The notes beneath the pieces are model-generated. The model was not told the origin of the DNA. It saw only the letters and a program-made list of their open reading frames with translations, and did not search any database. The translations under genes and the position numbers were made by a program. Shown here piece after piece: positions 20,959 to 26,522 of a stretch of 64,000 bases of DNA (the stretch's first letter is position 1; the number at the start of each line of letters is the position of its first letter). This DNA comes from Frigoribacterium sp. PvP032. GTDB lineage: Bacteria; Actinomycetota; Actinomycetes; Actinomycetales; Microbacteriaceae. The stretch is from the NCBI RefSeq assembly GCF_017833035.1, contig NZ_JAFIBM010000001.1, positions 1,116,001-1,180,000 on the forward strand, in the 5' to 3' direction.

Positions 20959-21327
20959 TCAGCGCCCGCCGCTGCCGGTGACCTGTGCCCCGGGCTCGGC
21001 GCCGCTCTCGCCGCGGCCGTCCTCGTCGTCGGCCGTGAGGCCGGCCGTGCGGTCGCCCGAGACGCCCGCGGGGTCGACGGCGACGTAGCCGTCCTCGCCC
21101 GACATCGGACCGCCGAGACGCTCGGTGACGTCGCCGTCGGGCGTGACGTCCCTGCCCCTGGCAGGACGGCCCTGGGTGTCGGTGGCGCCGTCGGCGGGGT
21201 GGCCGGCCGTGCCGGCAGCGGCTGCCTCGTCGTGGGAGGCGAGGGCCGCCTCCTCGACCCGCCCCTGCAGGGCGCTGCCCCCGGTGGCGTGGTCGTCGGC
21301 GGAGTCGTGGTCGTGTGTGTCGCTCAT
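20959..21327 (-). CDS. Small hydrophilic acidic protein
   Basis: 122 aa, rich in Gly, Ala, Asp, Glu and His, with no hydrophobic segment (starts MSDTHDHDSADDHATGG). The composition suggests disorder. It is not recognised; stress-type hydrophilins look similar but this is speculative. GAGAGGACGAACCCC precedes the ATG, nearly the same leader as in front of the padR gene. Confidence 0.5.
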   Translation of the reverse strand: MSDTHDHDSADDHATGGSALQGRVEEAALASHDEAAAAGTAGHPADGATDTQGRPARGRDVTPDGDVTERLGGPMSGEDGYVAVDPAGVSGDRTAGLTADDEDGRGESGAEPGAQVTGSGGR

Positions 21328-21387: not shown

Positions 21388-22302
21388 TCAGGGGACGGTC
21401 GGCAGGGCGTGCGACCACAGGTGGAAGAGCGCGTAGGCCCGCCACGGTGCCCAGGGCGCGGACGCGACCTCGGCCTGCTTCGTCGTGACGCCGCCCAGCG
21501 CCCGCCTGAGCACGAGGTCTCCGGCCGGGTAGGCGTCGCGGTCGCCCAGGGCGCGGACGGAGAGGTAGTCGACCGTCCAGGGGCCGATGCCGGGCAGGGC
21601 CAGCAGGGAGGCCCGCGTCGCCGCGCGATCGCCGTCGGGGGAGATGACGAGGCCCTCGGCCACGGCCTCGGCGACCGCGTGCAGGGTGCGGCCGCGCGCT
21701 CCGGTGACGCCGACGGCGGCCCGGAGCTCGTCGACGGGCAGGGCCGCGACGACGTCGGCCCGGGGGAACCTGCGGAGGCCCGTGCCTGCGACGTCGCTGC
21801 CGAGCGCCGTGACGAGCCGTCCCGCGAAGGTGCGGGCGGCCGCGAGCGAGACCTGCTGCCCCAGCACGGTGGTGACCGCCGCCTCCCAGCCGTCGGGGCT
21901 GCCCGTGATGCGGATGCCCGGTCGTGCGCGGACGAGCGGGCCGAGCACGGGGTCGTCGCCCAGGCCGGCGAGCACCGCGCCGGAGTCCGCGTCGAGGTCC
22001 AGCCACCGACGGACCAGCCGCTCGACCCGGTCGCGGTCATCTGGCGAGGCGGCGAGACCCGAGGAGGCGGTGGCCACGACGTCGACACCGCTCGGCTCGA
22101 GCCGCAGGTCGAGCCGCAGCACGCGGCTCGGTTCGTCGGCCGTGGCCACGTCGACGAGGCGCGAGTGCGTGCCCGCGGCGACGTCGGTCAGCTCGGCGCC
22201 CGGGACGGAGTGCGCCGCGAGCAGGCCGATCGCGTGAGCGGCGTCGTACGGGCCGTCGGTCTCGAGCCGCAGCTCGAAGGGGCGTGCCGCGAGGTCGGTC
22301 AC
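21388..22302 (-). CDS. alkA: DNA-3-methyladenine glycosylase 2 (AlkA-like)
   Basis: 304 aa, similar in length to E. coli AlkA (282). The N-terminal AlkA_N domain (FELRLETDGPYDAAHAIGLLAAH, about 8-120) is followed by the HhH-GPD domain: TTVLGQQVSLAAARTFAGRL, LPGIGPWTVDYLSVRALGD (helix-hairpin-helix) and AYPAGDLVLRRA with the catalytic Asp. It excises 3-methyladenine and other alkylated bases. GTG start overlaps the TGA of tag (GTGA), so it is the last gene of a coupled alkylation-repair operon. Confidence 0.88.
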   Translation of the reverse strand: MTDLAARPFELRLETDGPYDAAHAIGLLAAHSVPGAELTDVAAGTHSRLVDVATADEPSRVLRLDLRLEPSGVDVVATASSGLAASPDDRDRVERLVRRWLDLDADSGAVLAGLGDDPVLGPLVRARPGIRITGSPDGWEAAVTTVLGQQVSLAAARTFAGRLVTALGSDVAGTGLRRFPRADVVAALPVDELRAAVGVTGARGRTLHAVAEAVAEGLVISPDGDRAATRASLLALPGIGPWTVDYLSVRALGDRDAYPAGDLVLRRALGGVTTKQAEVASAPWAPWRAYALFHLWSHALPTVP

Positions 22303-22898
22303 GGGGTCGTGCTCCAGACGCCCGACGAGCCCCGTCGGTGGCTGTCGACCAGGTGGGTGTCGACGATGCCGGTGGCCTCCATCAGCGCGTGCATGGTCGT
22401 CGGGCCGACGAACGCGAAGCCGACGGCCTTGAGCGACTTCGAGAGCGCCACCGACTCGGGCGAGGTCGTCGGCACGTCGGCGAGCTCGACGGGGCGAGGA
22501 GTCTCGGCCGGCCTGTGCGACCACACGAGCTCGACGAGCCCGCCGTGCTCGCGCAGGGCCACGGTCGCGCGGGCGTTCGTGATCGTCGCGTCGATCTTGA
22601 GCCGGTTGCGCACGATGCCCGCGTCGGCGAGCAGGCGTTCTCGGTCGGCGTCGTCGAAGCTGGCCACCACGTCGGGGTCGAAGTCGCGGAACGCCGAGCG
22701 GAAGGCCTCGCGCTTGCGCAGGATGGTGGCCCACGACAGCCCCGACTGGAAGGCCTCGAGGCTCAGCCGCTCGAAGATCCCGCGCTCGTCACGGACGGGC
22801 ATGCCCCACTCGGTGTCGTAGTACTCGCGCATCAGCGGATCGACGGCTGCCCACGGGGGCCGGGCCAGGCCGTCGTCACCGACCACCACGCCGCTCAC
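22299..22898 (-). CDS. tag: DNA-3-methyladenine glycosylase I (Tag), atypical zinc site
   Basis: 199 aa. REYYDTEWGMPVRDERGIFERLSLEAFQSGLSW is the Tag core, with the conserved base-recognising Glu48 and Trp. TTSPESVALSKSLKAVGFAFVGPTTMHALMEATGIVDTHL matches the second half. The E. coli enzyme closes its termini with a zinc bound by Cys4, His17, His175 and Cys179; here there is no N-terminal Cys, His17 is Tyr27, and the final Cys is replaced in VDSHRR. GTG start overlaps the stop of ogt (GTGA), and its own stop overlaps alkA. Confidence 0.88.
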   Translation of the reverse strand: MSGVVVGDDGLARPPWAAVDPLMREYYDTEWGMPVRDERGIFERLSLEAFQSGLSWATILRKREAFRSAFRDFDPDVVASFDDADRERLLADAGIVRNRLKIDATITNARATVALREHGGLVELVWSHRPAETPRPVELADVPTTSPESVALSKSLKAVGFAFVGPTTMHALMEATGIVDTHLVDSHRRGSSGVWSTTP

Positions 22899-23557
22899 GA
22901 GCGGGCTCCCGACGCGAGCTGCGACTCGAGCCCGAGCAGGACCGCCTTCGCGGCCTCGCCGCCGCGGTACCGGCCGGGGGTGCCGTCGCTGCGCACTACG
23001 CGATGGCAAGGCACGACGACGGGCAACGGGTTCGTCGCGCAGGCTGTGCCGACGGCTCTGACCGCACGCGGGCTGCCGCTCGCCGTGGCGACCCTGGCGT
23101 AGCTCGCCGTCTCGCCGTAGGGGATCTCGGGCAGGTGCTCGAGCACCGTCCGCTGGAAGCCCCTCGACAGCCGGCGATCGAGCACGAGATCGAAGCCTCG
23201 TCGACGGCCGGCGAAGTACTGGTCGATCTCGACGGCGACGTCGTCCAGACGACGGGCGGACCGCAGCACCCGGGAGCCGACCTGGACGGCGACCCGGTCG
23301 AGCACCGCGTCGTGGTCCTCGACCTCGAAGGCGACACGGAGGAGGCCGACGTCCGTGGCGCAGAGCAGCAACGGCCCGACGGGCGACGGGACGGTCCGCC
23401 AGAAGACGTCGACGGTGCCGACGGCGGCCGCCTCGTCGGCGAGCCGGTCGCGGAGCAGGTCGAGGTGCTCGTCGAGGCGGGGGCCCGCCTCGGTGCCGGT
23501 CGCCTCGGCGAGACGGCGCTGCAGCGCCGTGTCGACGTCGGGTGCGGTGTCGGTCAT
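22895..23557 (-). CDS. ogt: Methylated-DNA--cysteine methyltransferase with N-terminal extension
   Basis: 220 aa. The MGMT/Ogt domain starts near residue 50 (VFWRTVPSPVGPLLLCATDVGLL); the acceptor Cys184 is in VVPCHRVV, with the Arg finger and Asn hinge in RAVGTACATNPLP. It transfers an alkyl group from O6-alkylguanine to itself. The first 48 residues are charged and helical (LDEHLDLLRDRLADEA) and are not part of the usual enzyme. ATG overlaps the sigma-factor stop (ATGA), the arrangement usually seen for a sigma and its regulator. Confidence 0.88.
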   Translation of the reverse strand: MTDTAPDVDTALQRRLAEATGTEAGPRLDEHLDLLRDRLADEAAAVGTVDVFWRTVPSPVGPLLLCATDVGLLRVAFEVEDHDAVLDRVAVQVGSRVLRSARRLDDVAVEIDQYFAGRRRGFDLVLDRRLSRGFQRTVLEHLPEIPYGETASYARVATASGSPRAVRAVGTACATNPLPVVVPCHRVVRSDGTPGRYRGGEAAKAVLLGLESQLASGARS

Positions 23558-24150
23558 CGCCGTGCTCCTTCTCGGGGCGTCGCGTGTCGGGGGGATGTCG
23601 GAAGGGAGAATTCCTCCCAGGCAGGGGCAGGGGCAGGGGCAGGGGCAGAGGCAGAGGCAGGGGCGGCGGCGGTCTCGTCGCCCGGGCCGAGCACCCGGCG
23701 GAGCGCGGCGACGCCGTCGGCGGCGGCGCGTCGACAGGCGGCGTGGCTCCGGCCCGTCAGCTCGGCGACCTCGAGGTGGCTGAGCCCGGTGAGGTGGTGC
23801 AGCACCACCGCGTCGCGTTGCCCCTCGGGCAGGGACCGGACTGCGCGGAGCAGTGCGTCATCGCGAGCCAGCAGCTCGTCGAAGGAGACCGGCGGCGCGG
23901 ACTCGGGCACCAGCTCGACGGGCTGGGGTCGACGGCTCTTGCCCCGGATGACGTCGAGTGCCTTGCGACGGGCGACGGTGACGAGCCACGCCTCGACGTT
24001 GACGTCTGCCGGCAGGTCTGGCCACGCGACGAGGGCGGCCAGGAACGTCTCGGACCAGGCATCGTCGGCGTCGGCCGCGTCGAGCAGGGCCCGGCAGACG
24101 CGGAGCACGGTGGTGCCGTGCAGCTCGACGACACGATCGAAGGGAGGCAC
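23554..24150 (-). CDS. ECF-type RNA polymerase sigma factor inside repair operon
   Basis: 198 aa. Region 2 (about 3-70: VLRVCRALLDAADADDAWSETFLAAL, WLVTVARRKALDVIR) and region 4 (about 105-155: LPEGQRDAVVLHHLTGLSHLEVAELTG, then the recognition helix) are those of sigma-70 family extracytoplasmic-function factors; regions 1 and 3 are absent. The C-terminal tail (about 162-177) is an Ala/Pro repeat made by a CAGGGG hexamer array. GTG start 1 nt after the stop of the preceding ogt gene, and its stop overlaps the next ogt. It probably directs transcription of an alkylation regulon, possibly this operon. Confidence 0.85.
   Translation of the reverse strand: MPPFDRVVELHGTTVLRVCRALLDAADADDAWSETFLAALVAWPDLPADVNVEAWLVTVARRKALDVIRGKSRRPQPVELVPESAPPVSFDELLARDDALLRAVRSLPEGQRDAVVLHHLTGLSHLEVAELTGRSHAACRRAAADGVAALRRVLGPGDETAAAPASASAPAPAPAPAWEEFSLPTSPRHATPREGARR
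23619..23664. repeat. GGGGCA/GAGGCA hexanucleotide array
   Basis: About seven consecutive 6-bp units encoding the (Ala-Pro/Ser) tail of the sigma factor. Length changes would keep the frame. Confidence 0.85.
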
Positions 24151-24151
24151 G

Positions 24152-24676
24152 TCAGAAGAGCCGACCGGAGCCGGACGCCGACGGGGCCTCGTGGTCGAGC
24201 AGGAACCGCTTGCGGTCGAGCCCGCCGGCGTACCCGGTGAGGGAGCCGGCCGAGCCGACGACCCGGTGGCACGGCACGACGATGCTCAGGGGGTTGGCCC
24301 CGTTGGCCGTACCCACGGCCCGGGCCAGCCTGACGTCGCCGAGGCCGAGCGCGAGCTGGCCGTAGGTACGCGTCTCGCCCCACGGGATGGCAGCGAGCTG
24401 CTGCCACACCCGCTGCCGGAACTCGGTGCCGACCGGGGCGAGGGGCAGGTCGAAGACGCGACGCTCGCCGGCGAACCACGACGCGAGTTGGCTCTCGACC
24501 TCGACGAAGTCGGAAAGCCCCGTGCCCACCGCCGATCTCGGACCGAACCCGGCCGGATCGGGCAGGCGGCGGTGCTCGGGGAACCAGAGGCCGGTCAGGC
24601 CGTCGTCACCGCCGACGAGGGTGAGGGTGCCCACGGGGCTGTCGATCGTCGTGTGGACGACGGAGATCGTGCTCAT
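24152..24676 (-). CDS. ogt: Methylated-DNA--cysteine methyltransferase (first gene of repair operon)
   Basis: 174 aa, normal MGMT length. IDSPVGTLTLVGGDDGLTGLWF is the N-terminal domain, FRQRVWQQLAAIPWGETRTYGQLA the winged helix that flips the damaged base, and NPLSIVVPCHRVVG the active site with Cys136. It repairs O6-methylguanine and O4-methylthymine stoichiometrically. AGGAG precedes the ATG. A TACCAT -10 box embedded in a TGATG-N5-CATCA palindrome lies 20 nt upstream, so this promoter probably drives all five genes (24676 to 21388). Confidence 0.9.
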   Translation of the reverse strand: MSTISVVHTTIDSPVGTLTLVGGDDGLTGLWFPEHRRLPDPAGFGPRSAVGTGLSDFVEVESQLASWFAGERRVFDLPLAPVGTEFRQRVWQQLAAIPWGETRTYGQLALGLGDVRLARAVGTANGANPLSIVVPCHRVVGSAGSLTGYAGGLDRKRFLLDHEAPSASGSGRLF

Positions 24677-24709: not shown

Positions 24710-24970
24710 TGGAGACGCACGACGCGCCTCCTTTGTGAGGTGCGGGTGGTGAACCTGCGCGGGCTGCACCGATCGGAACATGAGCCGCGAGTCTCAGCGG
24801 ACGCCCCGGCGCAGCCTGGTACTACTGATGGCGCGCCCTTCGAGGGCGCCACCGGCCCGGTCCGGGGACTCCACGCTGTCGGGTGCGTGCGAGCACCCGG
24901 GCCGGGTCCTCTCGTCCGGGGCCGCGCAGGTCGGTGCCGGTGGGCGCGAGCCGGTGCCGGTGGGCACGGG
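24710..24970. other. Intergenic region with no gene seen
   Basis: Between the repair operon promoter and the acylphosphatase stop. It holds a duplicated CGGTGCCGGTGGGC near 24930-24960 and otherwise nothing I can name; both strands lack a convincing start or Shine-Dalgarno. Confidence 0.5.
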
Positions 24971-25435: not shown

Positions 25436-25449
25436 CGGAAAACCGAGCA

Positions 25450-25533
25450 GGAGCAGCTACAGCAGCAGCTACAGGAGCAGCTACAGCAGCGACTGCAGCA
25501 GCAGCTACAGCAGCGACTAAAGCAGCGGCTACG
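25450..25533. repeat. 12-bp minisatellite, seven copies
   Basis: Units close to GCAGCAGCTACA at 25450, 25462, 25474, 25486, 25498, 25510 and 25522, ending 2 bp from the stop codon of the aldo/keto reductase. In the plus frame it reads as a Gln/Leu repeat using the rare Leu codon CTA, so it is unlikely to be coding. Confidence 0.9.
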
Positions 25534-25535
25534 AG

Positions 25536-26522
25536 CTAGCGGTCGATCGTCGACATGTCCGCGTAGCGATCGCCCTTCGGCGCCGCCACGTCGTCGAGCT
25601 GGTGCACCTGCTCCTCGTTCAGCTCGATCGCGTCGGCCGCCACGTTCTCGTCGAGGTAGGTGCGGCGCTTCGTGCCCGGGATCGGCACGATGCCCTCGCC
25701 CTTGGCGAGCAGCCACGCGAGAGCGACCTGGCCGGGCTTCGCGCCGACCTGGCGGGCGACCTCGTCGACCTGCTCGACGATGCGGACGTTGGCCTTGAGG
25801 TTGTCGCCCTCGAACCGCGGGTTGAAACGACGGAAGTCGTCGTCGGCCAGCTCGTCCACCGAACGGAGCGCGCCGGTGAGGAACCCGCGTCCGAGCGGCG
25901 AGTAGGGGACGAAGCCGATGCCGAGCTCACGCACGGTGGGCAGCACCTCGGCCTCCGCGTCGCGGCTCCAGAGCGACCACTCGGTCTGCAGCGCCGTGAT
26001 CGGGTGCGTGGCGTGGGCGCGACGGATGGTCTCGGGTGATGCCTCCGACAGCCCGAGGAACCGCACCTTGCCGGCCTCGACCAGCTCGCCCATCGCGCCG
26101 ACGGTGTCCTCGATCGGCACCAGGGGGTCGACTCGGTGCTGGTAGTAGAGGTCGACGTGGTCGATCCCGAGCCGCTTCAGCGAGCCGTCGATCGACTTGC
26201 GCACGTACTCGGGGCGACCGTCGATCGCCCGCTCGGCTCGCGCCTCCGGGTCGGTGACGTTGCCGAACTTGGTCGCGACCACTGCGTCGTCCCGACGGCC
26301 CTTGAGCGCCCGGCCGAGCAGCTGCTCGTTCGTGTGCGGGCCGTACATGTCGGCCGTGTCGAGCAGGGTGACCCCGCGGCCGAGCGCGGCGTGGATCACG
26401 CGGACCGACTCGTCGTCGTCGGTGCCGCTGCCGGTGTAGAAGGCGGACATGCCCATCAGGCCGAGGCCGATGCGGCCCACGTCGAGTCCGCCGTCGACGC
26501 TGCCGAGTGTGGTGTTCTTCAT
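25536..26522 (-). CDS. Aldo/keto reductase
   Basis: 328 aa. The AKR signature is complete: [31 protein letters not shown] (catalytic Asp and Tyr), VVATKFGN (catalytic Lys) and [10 protein letters not shown] (catalytic His). [26 protein letters not shown] and [14 protein letters not shown] belong to the AKR13/YakC-type group, NADPH-dependent reductases with broad aldehyde range. ATG start at 26522. The gene's 3' end abuts a 12-bp minisatellite. Confidence 0.9.

Follow-up and report, generated by a model that had tools for sequence, protein, structure and literature searches.

How might alkylation repair be controlled in an actinobacterium that lacks Ada? The adaptive response to alkylation is the textbook example of a repair protein doing its own sensing, and in the excerpts of the literature covered here its regulators EcAda, AdaA and Cada2 all bind promoter DNA themselves. 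The locus described below, from a window of 64,000 nucleotides (the whole stretch of DNA that was analysed), raises the question because its repair genes accompany a sigma factor. The evidence points to another solution, working through the sigma subunit of RNA polymerase, which could explain the control of alkylation repair in Actinomycetota genomes without Ada and which supplies a likely function, promoter and partner for a kind of sigma factor not yet characterised.

The operon and the distribution of Ada

The original prediction read the locus as an alkylation-repair operon with a sigma factor in the place of Ada. The gene order ogt1, sigma, ogt2, tag and alkA on which it drew was borne out (24676-21388, all on the minus strand; Table 1), as were the start of sigma 1 nt past the ogt1 stop and the coupling by 4-nt ATGA/GTGA overlaps, which are present at three junctions (sig-ogt2, ogt2-tag and tag-alkA). 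The sigma factor consists of sigma2 and sigma4 alone, with Pfam placing Sigma70_r2 at residues 8-74 and Sigma70_r4_2 at residues 98-149 and detecting no unrelated domain. The ogt1 gene is an accessory, variable member of the operon.

Table 1. Genes, junctions and promoter of the operon
Feature	Position	Strand	Details
Sigma-type promoter CTCAC-N17-CGTC	24714..24739	minus	-35 CTCAC 24739-24735, -10 CGT 24717-24715; 38 nt before ogt1 start
ogt1 (O6-alkylguanine-DNA alkyltransferase)	24152-24676	minus	174 aa; PF01035 3.9e-33; PCHR present
sig (ECF sigma factor)	23554-24150	minus	198 aa; GTG start; Sigma70_r2 1.2e-11, r4_2 3.8e-10
sig-ogt2 stop/start overlap ATGA	23557-23554	minus	4 nt
ogt2 (alkyltransferase)	22895-23557	minus	220 aa; PF01035 2e-29
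ogt2-tag stop/start overlap GTGA	22898-22895	minus	4 nt
tag (3-methyladenine DNA glycosylase I)	22299-22898	minus	199 aa; PF03352 2.1e-64
tag-alkA stop/start overlap GTGA	22302-22299	minus	4 nt
alkA (3-methyladenine DNA glycosylase II)	21388-22302	minus	304 aa; GTG start; AlkA_N 2.3e-14, HhH-GPD 3.9e-8

The genome is a single contig of 3.33 Mb rated 100% complete. A profile search of it for the N-Ada zinc domain PF02805, positive in 6 of 14 control genomes, returned 0 matches, so the lack of an Ada sensor first noticed near the operon holds genome-wide. A Cada2-like fusion of AraC and Ogt is likewise absent from the complete genome, since its 4 PF01035 and 8 PF12833 places never coincide. Among 150 family genomes sigma and Ada are almost mutually exclusive, the former being found in 37, the latter in 82 and both in only 2.

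The conserved pair, its probable promoter and putative regulon

Relatives retain the gene order in part. The sig-ogt2 pair is conserved and the full ogt1-sig-ogt2-tag-alkA order is not; ogt1, tag, alkA, alkB and PF09859 come and go, and the five-gene order was rejected as a conserved unit. Sigma adjoins ogt2 in all 30 family loci examined, this locus being one of the 30, and also elsewhere in the phylum, a recurrence beyond what chance would give. The next gene after sigma is ogt2 in 149 of 151 sigma loci, which come mostly from Actinomycetota; the other two loci lie near contig ends. Loci L123-L190 have ogt2 beside sigma in 66 of 68 cases, with the contigs of the two exceptions ending 30 nt (L137) and about 400 nt (L189) past sigma; further loci have it in 39 of 39. 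A start codon at the 4-nt sig-ogt2 overlap is available in 118 of 149 pairs under a start choice that favoured the overlap, and without that preference the overlap start is found in 36 of the 47 listed pairs. Among the genes after ogt2 that could be assigned, tag, alkA, alkB and the PF09859 oxygenase are the most frequent (44/152 loci). The four largest downstream gene clusters are all repair enzymes, and so the survey of downstream genes revealed no other conserved regulator.

The promoter is shared as well. TCAC-N17-CGT occurs in 85 of 112 upstream windows (shuffle mean 2.88, maximum 8), 17 being the only spacing that stands out; L043 and L044 carry the same motif at the same distance as the operon's own promoter, and the motif recurs in 31 of 39 new loci. 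The strict form gave 169 matches, compared with 5 in reversed sequence. Seven of the 112 upstream windows contain no usable motif, even upstream of ogt1 and before ogt2, and in L024, L027, L171 and L172 the motif is absent before sigma and present before ogt2. Within its own genome the operon site is the sole exact match to CCTCACR-N16-CGTCTMC, so that the regulon by exact motif is the operon alone; 9 other sites match at one mismatch, for which the backward control gives 1 site. A loose pattern was discarded as too unspecific, with 147 sites (64+83) vs 49 (27+22) in the backward control.

Elsewhere in sigma-bearing genomes, the strict motif precedes 7 of 16 stand-alone ogt1-class genes and is missing before the remaining 9, and it precedes 0 of 10 genes of another Ogt class. 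Stand-alone alkA was rejected as a member of the trans-regulon, since 0 of the 16 examined (18 listed) have the strict motif; a loose TCAC-N17-CGT near alkA of L272 and L279 was excluded from this count.

These patterns make it very probable that sigma controls the operon through the CTCAC-N17-CGT promoter. By reading this element before the operon, and before some unlinked ogt genes in relatives, it would drive expression of the repair genes and of sigma itself, as the sequence strongly suggests. In loci whose -10 element lies only 9-16 nt ahead of the sigma start codon, the transcript may begin at or close to that codon and so be leaderless. The proposal that sigma replaces Ada gains support from comparison, because the two almost exclude each other, because the motif also lies upstream of some unlinked ogt genes in relatives, and because tag, alkA, alkB and PF09859 are the commonest genes after ogt2; the regulatory role itself is putative.

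Ogt2 as candidate sensor and the competing explanations

Where the original prediction saw no sensor, the near-invariant partner Ogt2 is the likely one, a repair enzyme that may double as the damage sensor of sigma. Its catalytic PCHR cysteine is C184. The PCHR motif is kept in 143 of 149 linked Ogts, and of the six without it two are cut off by contig ends, one contains a frameshift and one reads ACHR, with the cysteine kept; some unlinked Ogt relatives have lost the cysteine. In the alignment an N-terminal helix is present in 106 of 112 sigma-linked Ogt rows vs 0 of 62 unlinked rows, the six other linked rows failing to align there, and the divergent hold-out members L329-L331 differ in this region. 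AlphaFold places helices at residues 8-20 and 26-45 of Ogt2 (mean pLDDT 90.9), and matching PDB chains begin at residue 51 or beyond, one chimeric chain excepted. Pfam found no recognised anti-sigma domain in Ogt2, PF02870 and PF01035 alone exceeding the cut-off, and all 38 Foldseek matches at E<=0.001 are alkyltransferases, with no anti-sigma fold among them. Natural sigma-Ogt fusions, sought as proof of interaction, were not flagged among L123-L192.

Covariation of the two proteins was examined within each sigma clade, because mutual information over both clades pooled was dominated by columns that differ between them. Across 65 near-clade pairs, sigma residue 5 and Ogt2 residue 36 combine as E-H in 36, D-R in 17, E-R in 6, D-H in 0 and otherwise in 6; the position pair was picked from a scan, and at discovery its z was 6.41, within the range of the permuted maxima (max 6.65). 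In a tree-aware scan of 4224 pairs it comes 2nd by |phi| and shares 2nd place for joint changes, and of 11 inferred sigma E-to-D changes 10 fall in lineages where R36 is seen and one (L153) where Ogt2 has G36. The hold-out of 34 pairs gave E-H 20, E-R 8, D-R 4, D-H 0 and other 2 (one-sided p=0.014, from just 4 D cases); the test ignores kinship, and some genera of the hold-out also occur in the discovery set. Among the 42 far-clade pairs these two positions are not prominent; the neighbouring s16-o35 and s8-o36 come 3rd and 5th, both inside the range of the permutations. The covariation of sigma D/E5 with Ogt2 R/H36 hints at a contact between the proteins, and Ogt2 is probably a direct regulatory partner of sigma.

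Our main reading, to which we assign a probability of roughly 55%, is a self-contained, autoregulated alkylation response in which Ogt2 would act as an anti-sigma factor that lets sigma go on being methylated itself. Translationally coupled to sigma, Ogt2 would bind it through the extra N-terminal helix, as the covariation suggests, and presumably keep it off RNA polymerase. C184 would accept the methyl group from O6-methylguanine, leaving Ogt2 irreversibly changed; as alkylation destabilises alkyltransferases and disrupts contacts between their N and C domains, according to an excerpt of PMC10779285, sigma would be released and the operon would fire. Once the lesions were gone, new unmethylated Ogt2 would recapture sigma. 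Each repaired lesion would thereby be counted, with one anti-sigma spent per methyl group, and the sigma-Ogt2 switch would stand in for Ada. Taken on its own, the claim that Ogt2 inhibits sigma until it is methylated is an even bet.

The same partnership could work with the opposite sign, methylated Ogt2 binding sigma or RNA polymerase and turning transcription on in the manner of Ada and Cada2. In the part of PMC10957082 drawn on here, Cada2 does turn transcription on once its PCHR cysteine is methylated, probably through RNA polymerase. The pairing, helix and covariation fit such an activator and an inhibitor equally well. We nevertheless consider co-activation unlikely, as an autoregulated sigma factor with nothing to restrain it would be prone to staying on, and sigma/anti-sigma pairs are typically coupled in translation. 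Ogt2 might instead be a mere repair enzyme within the regulon, the pairing reflecting operon conservation and sigma being set by transcription, proteolysis or another sensor. Its retained catalytic motif, the repair genes that most commonly follow it and the four loci where the motif precedes ogt2, like any ordinary target, would all suit this account, which is made rather improbable by the near-invariance of Ogt2 while ogt1, tag, alkA, alkB and PF09859 vary, by the extra helix that linked Ogts have and unlinked ones do not, and by the lack of another conserved regulator in the downstream survey. Titration, in which Ogt2 holds sigma and is drawn away by binding lesion DNA and not by cysteine methylation, accommodates the same comparative data, and alkyltransferase-like proteins lacking the cysteine do bind lesions; the intact PCHR of 143 of 149 linked Ogts, while some unlinked relatives lost the cysteine, leaves it a slim prospect.

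Relation to known systems and spread

A sigma-Ogt association is already catalogued, as ECF122. The excerpt of PMC8999054 describes an ECF sigma factor with conserved neighbouring 6-O-methylguanine DNA methyltransferases, represented by WP_057211282.1 of Cellulomonas sp. Root930, and lists the mechanism as unknown. Compared by description only, our sigma shares its sigma2 + sigma4 architecture and its conserved methyltransferase neighbour and is not known to differ from it; that description, in the part seen, gives no promoter motif, regulon, Ada exclusion or N-helix. Apart from this mention of ECF122, the matches listed in the literature searched include no paper on a sigma-Ogt response to alkylation, and none gives a promoter, a regulon, an exclusion of Ada or a model of the sensor for such a pair. 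Cada2 of Caulobacter, as described in the excerpt of PMC10957082, resembles Ogt2 in having an Ogt-domain PCHR cysteine as switch (presumed here) and no four-cysteine A-box domain, but it has its own sequence-specific DNA-binding domains, whereas Pfam shows none in Ogt2, whose partner is an ECF sigma. An Ogt domain with a PCHR cysteine is shared with EcAda-like regulators. Like E. coli Ada, the system combines an ogt/alkA/alkB-type repair gene set with a suicidal methyl acceptor as presumed sensor and presumed positive autoregulation; unlike it, the system lacks the N-Ada zinc domain and any fusion of an AraC HTH to Ogt, and the presumed output is a separate sigma gene.

SigR-RsrA and SigE-ChrR are soluble cytoplasmic anti-sigma pairs, in which, as here, an ECF sigma and its partner share one coupled operon with an autoregulated promoter; unlike their partners, Ogt2 has no recognised anti-sigma domain. 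We tentatively suggest an alkyltransferase that is an anti-sigma consumed by its own repair reaction, hence a stoichiometric lesion counter, a new anti-sigma class and an Ada stand-in in many genomes of the family. Should Ogt2 prove to be the switch, this would be, to our knowledge, the first anti-sigma consumed by reaction with damaged DNA.

The viral contigs searched contained no Ogt2 relative. Plasmids were rejected as the main vehicle of spread, as just 3 plasmid records carry the module. On a Rhodococcus plasmid, a lone Ada_Zn protein follows the sigma-ogt2 module.

Organization and conservation of the sigma-ogt2 pair

The original prediction described a minus-strand alkylation-repair operon of five genes, and this order was borne out, with a 1-nt gap between ogt1 and the ECF sigma factor gene and 4-nt overlaps at the three other junctions. 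The host genome is a single 3.33-Mb contig with a completeness rating of 100%. The proposed absence of an Ada-type sensor holds throughout it, as we found neither a match to the Ada zinc domain PF02805 nor an AraC-Ogt fusion. Two more alkyltransferase-like genes are present (G000:C1:1710058-1710306, fetched as L011 and L283, and G000:C1:3132081-3132284, fetched as L012), and no sigma-type motif was found upstream of the L283 gene.

Features of the alkylation-repair operon and its surroundings (window positions)
Feature	Positions	Strand
ogt1	24676-24152	minus
sigma	24150-23554	minus
ogt2	23557-22895	minus
tag	22898-22299	minus
alkA	22302-21388	minus
122-aa hypothetical protein	20959-21327	minus
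CCTGCC-type repeat	23615-23670	minus
GCTGCTGTAGCTGCTCC-type repeat, 5' of acylphosphatase gene	25440-25540	minus

The CCTGCC-type repeat (Pro/Ala) lengthens the C-terminal tail of sigma; in Frigoribacterium relatives the whole protein measures between 155 and 208 aa. The hypothetical protein, with no Pfam or NCBIfam match, also lies downstream of alkA in four Frigoribacterium loci (L043-L046), and Ogt2 of two of these (L043, L044) is 88-90% identical to that of the window, in keeping with an origin of the window in this genus or close to it.

Judged from sequence comparison, the conserved unit is sigma together with ogt2. A search for the gene order across the genome samples recovered this pair at 149 of 151 sigma loci, whereas the genes after ogt2 vary. 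Sigma orthologs are sharply bounded (37/150 family genomes at E <=2e-32; next match 1.1e-15), and an ogt2-type gene adjoins sigma in all 30 fetched family loci, one of them the window's own. A phylum sample of 396 genomes yielded 72 matches at E <=5.9e-26, and we examined 63 of them together with the 7 remaining family loci. Among loci L123-L190, where L133 represents the window itself, Ogt2 lies downstream of sigma in 66/68; in the two exceptions the contig continues for 30 nt (L137) or about 400 nt (L189) after sigma. Loci L191 and L192 have no Ogt2 despite room, and their sigma scores are 90 and 92 bits versus at least 93 for the others. A third sample of 394 genomes, from which three new partial matches were excluded (two in G633, one in G809), gave the pair in 39/39 further loci. 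The total counts Ogt2 matches beginning <=700 nt after sigma, may count some species twice and includes one Chloroflexi MAG (L074).

In 118/149 pairs ogt2 can start at a 4-nt overlap with sigma when start choice favours overlap; without that preference this holds for 36/47 loci among the matches listed. The PCHR motif is retained in 143/149 linked Ogt2 proteins. The exceptions are two sequences that stop at contig ends (L151, L186), a frameshift (L062), an ACHR variant (L136), the Chloroflexi MAG, which has lost the active-site stretch, and L167.

Downstream genes were surveyed at 152 loci after removal of 11 repeats, and the counts are lower bounds because flanks are short at many loci. A chained downstream gene is present in 102. 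In 44 of these the first such gene is tag (14), a PF09859 oxygenase (12), alkB (11) or alkA (7), and 34 of the 44 could overlap ogt2 by 4 nt, the length favoured by the script; with later genes included, the totals are 19, 12, 12 and 8, respectively. First genes at the other 58 loci are mostly singletons, with no further cluster of >5 members. On a Tsukamurella plasmid (L334 3480-6438) the order is ogt1-sigma-ogt2-PF09859-alkB; neighbouring genes overlap by 4 nt as far as PF09859, with 1 nt before alkB. On a Rhodococcus antarcticus plasmid, a lone 100-aa Ada_Zn_binding protein follows sigma-ogt2-PF09859 oxygenase (L332 5882-6184), so a second methyl sensor may have joined that module.

Candidate promoter and distribution of Ada

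Of 112 upstream regions, each 300 nt long, 85 carry the motif TCAC-N17-CGT, against an average of 2.88 and a maximum of 8 in dinucleotide-shuffled controls; other spacings from 11 to 23 occur in 0-11 of the same regions. Among the 27 without it, 14 carry the motif before an upstream ogt1, 2 near sigma with another start and 4 before ogt2, and 7 have no countable motif. New loci of the third sample carry it in 31/39 cases, and the strict form (C/T)TCAC(A/G)-N16-CGT(C/T) has 169 matches across 149 loci versus 5 in reversed sequence. In 62/85 the distance from the end of the CGT to the start codon is 9-16 nt, which suggests a leaderless mRNA.

The window promoter site (24739-24714) is the sole exact CCTCACR-N16-CGTCTMC match in the host genome. 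A strict-pattern scan of 150 family genomes returned 22 sites, 13 of them inside the sigma operon (one, in G080, before ogt2). Four are extra sites in sigma-bearing genomes, two of these before stand-alone ogt genes, and none of the five in sigma-less genomes lies before a gene with a match to any repair protein of the window. Across the 37 sigma-bearing genomes the strict motif precedes 7/16 stand-alone ogt1-class genes, including both ogt genes of the scan, and the same-strand gene that follows is tag in two of the seven and alkA in two. It was found before 0/16 stand-alone alkA genes examined (of 18) and 0/10 examined genes of the other Ogt class (of 22). At L128 and L129, ogt1 is divergent from sigma and has its own motif copy. 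Amycolatopsis saalfeldensis has a sigma-ogt2 pair (L047) and, elsewhere and with no adjacent sigma, the motif followed by a Vsr-domain gene and a second helix-bearing Ogt (L051 3461-4558).

Within the family, the 150 genomes indicate that sigma and Ada largely exclude each other: sigma is present in 37, PF02805 in 82, both in 2 and neither in 33 (Fisher p=5e-13, kinship uncorrected). By genus, in hand-read counts, Ada occurs in some sampled genome of 5/23 sigma genera versus 45/62 others (p=4e-5), and genera g9, g21 and g71 have Ada in one species and sigma in another.

Ogt2 architecture and a possible sigma switch

Ogt2 is a special ALKYLTRANSFERASE in which about 50 residues precede PF02870 and PF01035. 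An AlphaFold model (46-row alignment, mean pLDDT 90.9) predicts helices at 8-20 and 26-45, a first strand at 51-56 and a fold resembling solved alkyltransferases (1sfe, 4wxd and others), whose sequence matches begin at residue >=51 except for one chimeric chain. With a linked-Ogt profile, the N-terminal helix (approximately L..L(H/R).RL...A...G.LDVAYR) aligned at profile position <=24 in 106/112 linked rows versus 0/62 unlinked. The counts are of alignment rows, a few of them repeats; linked rows <165 bits were dropped to exclude ogt1 copies, 44 of the 112 built the profile and the 39 hold-out loci stood outside this scoring.

In a mutual-information scan of 65 near-clade pairs, sigma residue 5 and Ogt2 residue 36, inside the N-terminal helix, ranked top (z 6.41); maxima of 30 permutations averaged 4.54, the highest, 6.65, exceeding the observed value. 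The combinations are E-H 36, D-R 17, E-R 6, D-H 0 and other 6, so that the longer acid goes with the shorter base and vice versa. The 34 hold-out pairs from new loci, which share some genera with the discovery set, gave E-H 20, E-R 8, D-R 4, D-H 0 and other 2 (one-sided Fisher p=0.014, kinship uncorrected). A tree of 98 pairs, which includes discovery data and was computed with both tested columns removed, gave 11 reconstructed E-to-D changes at sigma 5, 7 on an R36 background (one, L153, actually has G36, R being a reconstruction) and 4 with H-to-R; the sole D-to-E change coincides with R-to-H. In 3000 simulations of independent change, a correlation as strong as the real one never arose, and a D-H pair was absent from 6. 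Of the 4224 usable column pairs, the sigma 5-Ogt2 36 pair ranks second by correlation and tied second by joint changes; in the far clade it does not stand out. The covariation is suggestive of sigma-Ogt2 contact and is not proof.

The sequences show the pairing, the coupling, the intact catalytic motif, the extra helix, a dedicated promoter motif that is present in trans as well and the family-level exclusion of Ada. In the mechanism we propose, sigma would read the TCAC-N17-CGT promoter and so drive its own gene, for which logic calls for a brake; Ogt2 would bind and inhibit sigma, and methylation of its PCHR cysteine, C184, would free it. This release is proposed by analogy with alkyltransferases, whose fold is destabilised and whose N/C-domain contacts are disrupted on alkylation (PMC10779285), and with the Caulobacter AraC-Ogt fusion regulator Cada2, which PCHR cysteine methylation activates and whose C267G form is constitutively on (PMC10957082).

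The window sigma is very probably a member of ECF122, a group with 6-O-methylguanine DNA methyltransferase neighbours whose mechanism is listed as unknown in a 2022 review (PMC8999054). In the literature searched, where matching papers were partly covered, we found no study of the promoter, regulon or sensor of such a sigma. Because the group is already catalogued and these three features had no study in that literature, we rate the module as a variant form of the adaptive response and not a categorically new system.

Eight sigma-unlinked Ogt2 relatives (L063, L065, L067, L071, L076, L077, L081, L090) have PVHR or PAHR in place of PCHR and have lost the methyl-accepting cysteine. An opposite-strand frame of 1238-1456 aa lies beside the Ogt gene in the inspected loci L063, L065, L067, L071, L076, L077, L083 and L122.
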